From: an uncultured Ruminiclostridium sp.
GTDB lineage: Bacteria; Bacillota; Clostridia; Oscillospirales; Ruminococcaceae
DNA: 64,000 nt
Direction of reading: 5' to 3'
Assembly (NCBI GenBank): GCA_947623915.1
Contig: CANQIB010000001.1
Span: 62,001-126,000 of the forward strand
The translations under genes were made by a program, and so were the position numbers. Below the pieces are notes generated by a model. The model saw only the letters and a list, made by a program, of their open reading frames with translations, made no database searches and had not been told where the DNA came from. Every line of letters begins with the position of its first letter. Position 1 is the stretch's first letter. Below are positions 3,329-35,481 of this stretch, one piece after another.

Positions 3329-3700
3329 ATGAAAATACAGGAATCTGCCGAAAATTATCTTGAATCTATTCTGATACTTCAAAACCGCTTGGGAAACGTT
3401 CGTTCCATCGACATAGTGAACTTCCTCGACTATTCCAAGCCGAGCATAAGCGTGGCGATGAAAAATCTCCGCAACGAGGAATATATAGAAATAGACGGTA
3501 AGAATTACATCACGCTTACCGATAAAGGGCGCGCCATAGCCGAAAAAATGTACGAACGTCACACTATGCTGACCGACTGGCTGACGCGGCTGGGCGTAGA
3601 CGAAAAGACCGCCGCCGAGGACGCTTGCAGGATAGAACACGTTTTGAGCGACAAGAGCTTCGCGGTGCTGAAAAAGCATATTCTCGAAACCGCCGAATAA
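3329..3700 (+). CDS. DtxR/MntR family metal-dependent transcriptional repressor, short form
   Basis: A 123-residue DNA-binding metalloregulator with the N-terminal winged helix (about 1-65) and the dimerisation/metal domain (about 66-120). It lacks the SH3-like third domain of full-length DtxR and so has MntR-like size. DACRIEHVLSD at residues 98-108 matches the DtxR primary site (Cys, Glu, His). Glu12 and His78 align with other metal ligands. The Cys in place of the MntR Glu suggests iron rather than manganese sensing, which is inference. The start is preceded by GGGAGGAAAAC. A mobile-element-like repeat begins 11 bp after the stop. No metal transporter is adjacent, so its targets are elsewhere. 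Confidence 0.88.
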   Translation: MKIQESAENYLESILILQNRLGNVRSIDIVNFLDYSKPSISVAMKNLRNEEYIEIDGKNYITLTDKGRAIAEKMYERHTMLTDWLTRLGVDEKTAAEDACRIEHVLSDKSFAVLKKHILETAE

Positions 3701-3711
3701 TACTTCGGCTA

Positions 3712-3986
3712 GGCATACGGGAGCCAAACCCAAGCCGCCCCACGGCGATGCCTTTGGGTGCTTTTCGTCCCTTTCGGCTTGACAGGCGCCAGCCTGCCTG
3801 CGCCTCAAGAAACAAAAATCACCTCAAATTCATTCACCGTGGGGTGCATAGCAGTTTTTACGGAGCAGATTTTCGTCAAGACAAGGAAACCGAACGATGG
3901 CATACTCGCGTATGTCGAGTGAGGTTGACGCGGGATTGGCGGAAATATGCCCGTAAAAACCGACTAGGGTTCGACTCCCGTATGCC
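3712..3986. mobile_element. 275-bp non-coding element with terminal inverted repeats, copy 1
   Basis: The ends are GGCATACGGGAG and CTCCCGTATGCC, a perfect 12-bp inverted repeat that continues imperfectly to 20 bp. The element is flanked by TA on both sides (3710-3711 and 3987-3988), consistent with a 2-bp target duplication. A second copy lies at 17989-18257; counted by eye they differ by about 11-12 substitutions and one 6-bp indel. The right half folds into a nested hairpin: 3854-3863 with 3951-3960, 3869-3879 with 3936-3946, and 3901-3905 with 3910-3914. No transposase is encoded. It sits between the regulator stop codon and its terminator. The family is unknown. Confidence 0.8.
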
Positions 3987-4003
3987 TAACCTTTGCTTAT
4001 TAA

Positions 4004-4034
4004 ATGTGTCGGTTTTTGCCGACGCATTTTTTAT
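4004..4034 (+). terminator. Intrinsic terminator, probably of the DtxR-family gene
   Basis: The arms ATGTGTCGG (4004-4012) and CCGACGCAT (4019-4027) are followed by TTTTTTATT. It lies just beyond the right end of the repeat element; without the insertion it would be about 30 bp after the upstream stop codon. Confidence 0.8.
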
Positions 4035-4056
4035 TTGATTTATTTTTTTCTGCCTA

Positions 4057-17551: not shown

Positions 17552-17645
17552 TATTTAGGTATTTGGGACTCAAAATAAAACTTGCGGGGAGCATAAACCG
17601 ATATTTTGTCCGATATGACGGGACTTGCTCCAAAGGAGAGAACCG

Positions 17646-18417
17646 ATGAGATTTGACTATTGTCCGAAATGCGGCGCAAGGCTGTCCTGTCGCGACCTTG
17701 GCGACGAGCGCGGCGTGCCGTGGTGCGACCGCTGCGGCAGACCGTGGTTTGAAATGTTTCCGTGCTGCGTCATAGTGCTTGCGCGCCGCGGCGGAAAGTA
17801 CGCGCTGATAAAGCAGAACAGCTGCGAGCAAAGCGAGCGTGACAAATTCGTCTGTGTGTCCGGCTATATCAAGACCGGCGAGAGCGCGGAGGACGCCGCT
17901 TGCCGAGAGGTAACGGAGGAGCTGGGGCTTGTCCCTTTATCCTGCAAACTCATCTCATCGTATGTTTATGAAAAAAAGCAGATGCTTGGGCATGCGGGAG
18001 CCGAACCCAAGCCGCCCCACGGCAATGCCTTTGAGTGCTTTTCGTCCCTTTCGGCTTGACAGGCGCCAGCCTGCCTGCGCCTCAAGAAACAAAAATCACC
18101 TCAAATTCATTCGCCGTGAGGTTAGTTTTTACGGAGGAGATTTTCGTCAAGACAAGGAAACCGAACGATGGCATACTCGCGTATGTCGAGTGAGGTTGAC
18201 GCAGGATTGGCGGAAATATGCCCGTAAAAACCGACTTGGGTCCGACTCCCGCATGCCTGTGCTCGGATTTGCCGTAGATGTAGCACAGGGAGAGTTTACG
18301 CTCTCCGATGAGCTGTGCGCGGCGGAATGGTTCGATAAAGACAAAGCGGTGGAGCTGCTCGGCAGGACTTCCGTCGGCGATAAGCTGATAAAGGATATTC
18401 TGACAAAGGGAATTTAA
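17646..18417 (+). pseudogene. NUDIX hydrolase (NudC-like zinc ribbon plus NUDIX), disrupted by an insertion
   Basis: The N-terminal part runs from ATG 17646 to about 17988: a four-Cys zinc ribbon (CPKCG...CDRCG) and a complete NUDIX box, GYIKTGESAEDAACREV then TEELGL. Translation then enters the inserted element and stops at 18059. The C-terminal part (LGFAVDVAQGEF to LTKGI) resumes after 18259 in another frame and ends at 18417. Removing the 269-bp element plus one 2-bp TG duplicate leaves exactly 501 nt, a single open frame of 166 codons with MLVLGF at the join. The intact enzyme would hydrolyse a nucleoside-diphosphate-linked compound. A truncated product with the NUDIX box could still be made. 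Confidence 0.9.
17989..18257. mobile_element. 269-bp non-coding element with terminal inverted repeats, copy 2
   Basis: The ends are GGCATGCGGGAG and CTCCCGCATGCC, flanked by TG on both sides (17987-17988 and 18258-18259). Compared with copy 1, the sixth base from each end changes together (A-T pair to G-C pair), so the ends remain perfectly complementary. The internal hairpin arms GTTTTTACGG and CCGTAAAAAC are unchanged. It lacks 6 bp present in copy 1 near the middle. It interrupts a NUDIX gene, which gives direct evidence that this unit inserted as a block. Confidence 0.88.

Positions 18418-34413: not shown

Positions 34414-35481
<1,068 letters not shown>

Follow-up and report, generated by a model that had tools for sequence, protein, structure and literature searches.

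How did the same small unit come to lie twice within 64,000 nucleotides of an uncultured Ruminiclostridium sp. genome (contig CANQIB010000001.1, positions 62,001 to 126,000; this whole stretch is here called the window, and positions are counted along it), and what moves it? A reading of the letters alone (the sequence-only reading) had described two near-identical units of 275 and 269 bp with 12-bp perfect inverted ends, 2-bp flanking duplications (TA in one, TG in the other) and no transposase gene, and had taken them for copies of a non-autonomous mobile element. The description was accurate in each of these respects. The perfect ends of copy 1, GGCATACGGGAG...CTCCCGTATGCC, continue as imperfect inverted ends to about 26 bp (92%). 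Copy 2 matches copy 1 at 96% identity across two ungapped blocks and at 93% overall, and by ORF reading neither copy has room for a transposase-sized gene. The complete element has a predicted Y-shaped fold (z -8.8 and -10.0 for the two strands) with two hairpin arms, A and B. The features are as follows.

3710..3711, no strand: left flanking TA of copy 1 (target-site repeat); TA/TA in 36 of 60 family copies
3712..3986, plus strand: mobile element copy 1, 275 bp; element-free site in relative G388
3712..3737, plus strand: left inverted end of copy 1, 12 bp perfect, about 26 bp at 92%
3738..3844, minus strand: arm A hairpin of copy 1, bounds approximate (predicted pairs 29-131 of the element)
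3778..3801, minus strand: apical tip of arm A, copy 1, GCAGGCAGGCTGGCGCCTGTCAAG (tip-pattern match, contig 65778-65801, minus strand)
3854..3960, plus strand: arm B, probable hairpin module of copy 1, bounds approximate (predicted pairs 143-249; strand-specific similarity to single-module palindromes)
3899..3916, plus strand: predicted apical tip helix of arm B, copy 1, TA/TA form (predicted pairs 188-205)
3961..3986, minus strand: right inverted end of copy 1 (inverted-end comparison, predicted pairing)
3987..3988, no strand: right flanking TA of copy 1 (target-site repeat; read from the sequence)
17625..18417, plus strand: NUDIX gene interrupted by copy 2 (ORF 17625-18059 enters the element; the remainder ends at 18417)
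17987..17988, no strand: left flanking TG of copy 2 (site alignment with relatives)
17989..18257, plus strand: mobile element copy 2, 269 bp (match to copy 1)
18055..18078, minus strand: apical tip of arm A, copy 2 (tip-pattern match, contig 80055-80078, minus strand)
18258..18259, no strand: right flanking TG of copy 2 (site alignment with relatives)

Open reading frames traverse both copies (3625-4038 and 17929-18417), which may consequently be annotated as hypothetical proteins. Elsewhere in the window, positions 34978-35303 hold a tandem-like direct repeat with spacings of 12, 18 and 30 bp and 15 copies in register.

Copy 2 had been said to split a NUDIX gene whose frame returns when the unit and one duplicate are taken out. 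Removal of copy 2 and one TG does give one continuous frame to the stop at 18417; Pfam identifies the segment upstream as a NUDIX domain (33.7 bits, cut-off 21.1; E 4e-8) and has no match for the 51-aa segment downstream. The uninterrupted gene is present in two congeners, G388 and G533, with GA and TA, respectively, at the insertion point.

The unit is dispersed well beyond the window. In its own genome (G000; 2.25 Mb in 25 contigs), the 20-bp end pattern has 44 matches with up to three mismatches, one of which reads as a tRNA gene, against none for a reversed control pattern, so that recurrence of the end is not due to chance. Comparison of the whole element with the same genome gave 39 match rows: 25 near-full-length copies (at least 244 of 275 query positions, 78-100% identity), six fragments and eight cross-matches between ends. 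Copies occur in both orientations; ends are of the GGCAT type in 20 of the near-full-length copies, four share other ends and one is unique. The same Y core, with different ends, also lies in another and longer non-coding repeat of G000 (about 513 bp shared by L021, L022 and L023, parts in L024 and L028). Remnants of about 27-29 bp with the two ends only, as if the hairpin had been deleted, lie at L032 near 2423, where they are TA-flanked, and at L312 in G132.

Confinement to a single genome, which had been named as something that would weaken the case for mobility, was not observed. Among 71 genomes of the genus (G000 included), 14 have a match and five the full element (G000, G532, G533, G535 and G388, hence four of the 70 others); in the remaining nine the match is limited to a short hairpin or arm stretch. 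Relatives at 75-80% identity with different outermost ends occur in another genus (G063 and G156), the element is present in G338, of another genus, by hairpin match and reading, and Vescimonas fastidiosa has a 73% match covering 77% of the element. Phage records gave no match to the window element, and a set of 72,556 plasmid records gave one; carriage by phages or plasmids was rejected.

The joined flanks of five copies were searched against the 71 genomes, and for all five an element-free counterpart was found in at least one relative. Those read base by base were L003 in G535 (92%) and G534 (90%); L011 in G533, G388 and G532, where some of the relatives may be paralogues, several genomes having matched at two places; L010 in G388 and G533; L007 in G326; and L001 in G388, with small gaps near the junction. 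Element-free sites in congeners at five of five loci indicate that the element has moved. Thus the other copies and empty sites on which the sequence-only reading had made its claim depend both exist, and its proposal of a non-autonomous mobile element is supported.

The flanks are informative about the target. Ends could be placed in 60 of 61 loci of the five genomes with the full element (the exception is L237, the sole G388 locus), and because L239/L261 and L250/L268 share flanks, each pair being one ancestral insertion, these represent at most 58 independent sites. Identical dinucleotides stand on both sides in 40 of the 60 copies (TA/TA 36, TG/TG 2, CA/CA 1, AA/AA 1), and the unequal flanks of the other 20 are taken, without proof, as decay. 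Where TA is on neither side, four of eight copies have identical flanks against 1.7 expected (p 0.07), and the case for a duplication therefore rests mainly on the TA/TA copies; TA/TA flanks would also follow from a TA fixed at the element ends. The preferred site leans to GCYTARGC (of 60: G at -5 in 35, C at -4 in 25, Y at -3 in 41, R at +3 in 36, G at +4 in 23, C at +5 in 34). By eye, two of nine element-free sites in relatives have TA at the insertion point, and since the nine sequences are 8-28% diverged a TA target there is neither proved nor excluded. The sequence-only reading had held that a TG duplication argues against strict TA targeting. This stands insofar as TG/TG, CA/CA and AA/AA copies exist and make the target rule loose; TA is nonetheless strongly preferred. 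With its inverted ends, 2-bp duplication and element-free sites in relatives, the unit is a MITE.

The body of the element has relatives of its own. BLAST against 197 family genomes returned full relatives and a 25-30-bp match in five genomes, and wherever its surroundings were read, this short match formed the apex of a further imperfect palindrome with different ends. Species genomes held at least 118 stretches with the hairpin match, and 77 of the 80 titles listed were Ruminococcus, Oscillospiraceae or other Clostridia. The clear palindromes with a single module are, by eye, about 150-200 bp long and have many unrelated ends; arms of at least 60 nt were scored in 79 of 80 single-module hairpins by a lax symmetry score that overruns the true ends. 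A looser tip pattern occurred in one of 398 genomes across the phylum (G000) and the strict pattern in six of 295 in the order, so the tip is patchy and rare elsewhere. Among 2.9 million viral contigs the strict tip had two matches. One single-module palindrome matched seven faecal phage records and no plasmid, and another likewise had no plasmid match. Translations of two palindromes matched nothing in Pfam or NCBIfam, even with E allowed up to 10, and a protein-coding reading was rejected. Contigs labelled Bacteroides, Alistipes (1.49 Mb) and Erysipelotrichaceae also bear the tip (L108, L120, L168), by mislabelling or transfer. In the single-module palindromes L123, L140 and L212 the ends start GAGCC and the flanks, by eye, appear to be 3-bp TNA and not the 2-bp TA of the present element, which suggests another class of transposase.

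Several comparisons bear on how the 275-bp body is related to these palindromes. Arm B (from the window copy, L082 and L059) compared with palindromes L042, L104 and L043 gave z values of 3.8 to 9.1 in eight of nine pairings and -0.3 in one, while on the wrong strand z did not exceed 1.8. Reversed arm A resembles arm B in L059 (z 6.3, reached by none of 500 shuffles), and no such likeness was detectable in L082 or the window copy (z 0.0). Paired changes distinguish the tip of one arm from that of the other (GG/CC versus TA/TA), and both forms occur singly, TA/TA in seven of nine G522 copies and GG/CC in four of seven G132 copies; two more G132 copies have a further re-paired tip stem. The element body thus resembles two inverted copies of a hairpin module found singly elsewhere, and both arms appear to be of common descent.

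Taken together, we consider it very probable that the element is a MITE moved in trans, via its inverted ends, by a transposase, and that its body is an inverted dimer of the hairpin module. The MITE part rests on dispersed copies, element-free sites in relatives, 2-bp flanking repeats and the target preference, and the dimer part on the strand-specific similarity of arm B, the shared covarying tip (see below) and the resemblance between arms A and B seen in one of three elements. In such a scheme, a transposase supplied in trans, presumably of DDE type, would recognize the inverted ends, and insertion would duplicate 2 bp, usually TA in a GCYTARGC-like site. The hairpin module may be kept as a help to the element in folding, mobilization or host tolerance.

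A full-length partner with the same ends, which the sequence-only reading had advised looking for, was not seen among the matches examined. By eye, no inverted end pairs 0.5-4 kb apart occurred among the matches listed for G000, G388, G532, G533 and part of G535, and G063, G156 and G338 have one match to the ends each. The single-module family of G132, a complete genome, has 12 end pairs spanning 161-173 bp and five unpaired ends. A set of 21 end sequences, traced through the loci, gave one 1.6-kb pair, and the ORF of that pair resembles, by eye, a membrane acyltransferase. A search by protein family covered PF13358 (DDE_3) and PF01797, the carrier set including holders of single-module palindromes. 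DDE_3 was not found in G000 and occurred in one of 12 carriers and none of 12 non-carriers; the Y1 (HUH; Y1_Tnp) transposase was not found in G000 either, and occurred in four of 12 carriers and four of 12 non-carriers. IS630-type and Y1 transposases therefore do not track the element. To our knowledge, a known partner is lacking for many MITEs.

These counts bear on a more specific proposal, that the enzyme comes from an IS630/Tc1-mariner relative. IS630 elements target TA with a CTAG-like preference, and both the TA preference and the Y at -3 and R at +3 seen here (41 and 36 of 60) would fit such a source. Among the 60 copies TA is preferred but not absolute. Against this source, DDE_3 was not found in G000 and occurred in just one of the 12 carriers. 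We regard this origin as possible, though rather doubtful.

Another reading assigns the leading role to the interior. On this account the apical hairpin, single-stranded on one strand, would be the mobilization signal, and the ends would supply only a stem and could differ between families. Across 14 families the tip has a mean pairwise identity of 0.94 (lowest 0.79) and the outer 15 bp a mean of 0.29, a contrast that is partly built in, since most of these families were found via the tip and their ends read by eye. We also examined 20 of the places in G132, G520 and G522 found from ends only, excluding those already known by their tip, and 17 had a recognizable tip (2-8 mismatches in 24). The exceptions are L323 and L324, whose tip loop is split by another palindrome, and the arm-less mini elements of L312. 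The insert in L323/L324 (G520) is a nested palindrome of about 60 bp, TGGTCT...AGACCA, inside the apical loop.

In the 17 ends-only copies (14 distinct), 91.2% of cells pair on the tip strand and 78.2% on the other. The covariation score and the number of cells changed on both sides exceeded all 500 shuffles on both strands, and the number of pairs changed on both sides was reached by four and two of 500; further pair types were not unusual (reached by 372 and 131 of 500). In all these statistics, related sequences share history. Templated correction of quasi-palindromes can also match arms, with no selection needed. The strand difference lies mainly in three wobble pairs (UG in 14 of 14; UG in 10 and CG in 4; GU in 12 and CG in 2), which suggests that what folds is a single strand, of RNA or of DNA. 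Wobbles outside the tip in 59 of 100 hairpins favor the minus strand (291 versus 147 on the plus strand; 42 elements versus 4, with 13 ties), but we rejected this asymmetry as strand evidence because it is largely expected from base composition at mismatches. In 41 of 64 loci the C-rich strand is also the one with the tip (uncorrected p 0.03 by sign test), as it is in 13 of 19 where skew exceeds 0.05 (p 0.17), which hints faintly at a link to replication.

The tip contrast, its retention in ends-only copies, the strand-biased pairing and the C-rich lean all favor the apical hairpin as signal. Against it, apart from the selection of families by tip, the ends are well kept within the window family, Y1 (HUH) enzymes are as frequent in non-carriers as in carriers, and the element has 2-bp flanks, whereas HUH elements leave no 2-bp duplication. 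We judge this reading unlikely. We also doubt its broader form, in which Ruminococcus-like Clostridia would harbor a superfamily of hairpin-addressed mobile palindromes with interchangeable stems and ends, the 275-bp inverted dimer showing the signal on either exposed strand. One source supports the statement that HUH elements leave no 2-bp duplication (PMC2817692).

The unit could also be a structured RNA gene or cis-acting RNA whose transcript is functional and whose spread is incidental. The fold scores given above and the wobble pairs favoring one strand are compatible with this, as is the alignment of 41 full elements, in which 39 of 73 predicted pairs show at least two Watson-Crick types; the structure was predicted from the same alignment (L275, in opposite orientation, left out), many of these pairs lie in the ends, and pair symmetry there would be demanded by a transposase alone. 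However, there was no Rfam match near gathering score, the full element is patchy (five of 71 genomes of the genus) and one copy sits inside a gene. Furthermore, 69 single-module loci showed no orientation bias relative to neighboring genes (15 sense and 25 antisense in tandem genes, p 0.15) or in read-through orientation (30 versus 34, p 0.71), which argues against a role in host transcripts, and a transcript-sense function was rejected. A functional RNA is thus quite improbable here. Origin from a tRNA or tmRNA, considered because the ends contain the T-arm-like GGGTTCGACTCCC and a 13-nt stretch matches a tmRNA model far below cut-off (10.5 bits, cut-off 47; E 0.036), was rejected as extremely improbable, since ARAGORN finds nothing in the window and GGGTTCGACTCCC is lost in the L021 subfamily and the single-module families.

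As a MITE with a probable dimeric body, the element has counterparts in other bacteria. ERIC/IRU and NEMIS/Correia elements are short imperfect palindromes with inverted ends, a terminal TA, a target-site duplication and stable long stem-loops, sometimes fused to genes, and by description they are alike in anatomy (PMC2229807; PMC10969869). The present element differs in its probable back-to-back pair of modules, in a tip that recurs in families with unrelated ends, and in its Ruminococcus-like Clostridia hosts. RUP of Streptococcus pneumoniae is by description also a small repeat at TA sites, with a proposed IS630 partner, IS630-Spn1 (PMC2229807); none was seen for the element described here. 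The CIR elements of Caulobacter similarly have two hairpin arms in one small mobile sequence, but their arms are joined by a linker and their ends do not pair (PMC2229807), whereas the present element has paired ends and arms that are probably related. REP/RAYT systems (GTAG and CGTC repeats) share a short hairpin common to many dispersed repeats (PMC3733652; PMC2817692); the elements here are 150-275 bp long with inverted ends and 2-bp flanks, and have no GTAG head in the tip and no Y1 transposase in G000. The build of the element is thus already known from ERIC, NEMIS, RUP and CIR (PMC2229807; PMC10969869). In the open-access literature we found no description of these repeats in Ruminococcus-like Clostridia, nor of back-to-back pairing of modules or of one apical hairpin across families with unrelated ends.

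The usual classification of bacterial MITEs treats them as shrunken insertion sequences and sorts them by their ends, while in the families examined here the interior apex is constant and the ends vary. If an unbiased census confirms this, end-based classing would overlook an entire superfamily, and common gut bacteria may have a protein that reads the tip. Moreover, the many naturally varied copies and the matching element-free sites are material for tests of target choice and of which features of the ends are needed.
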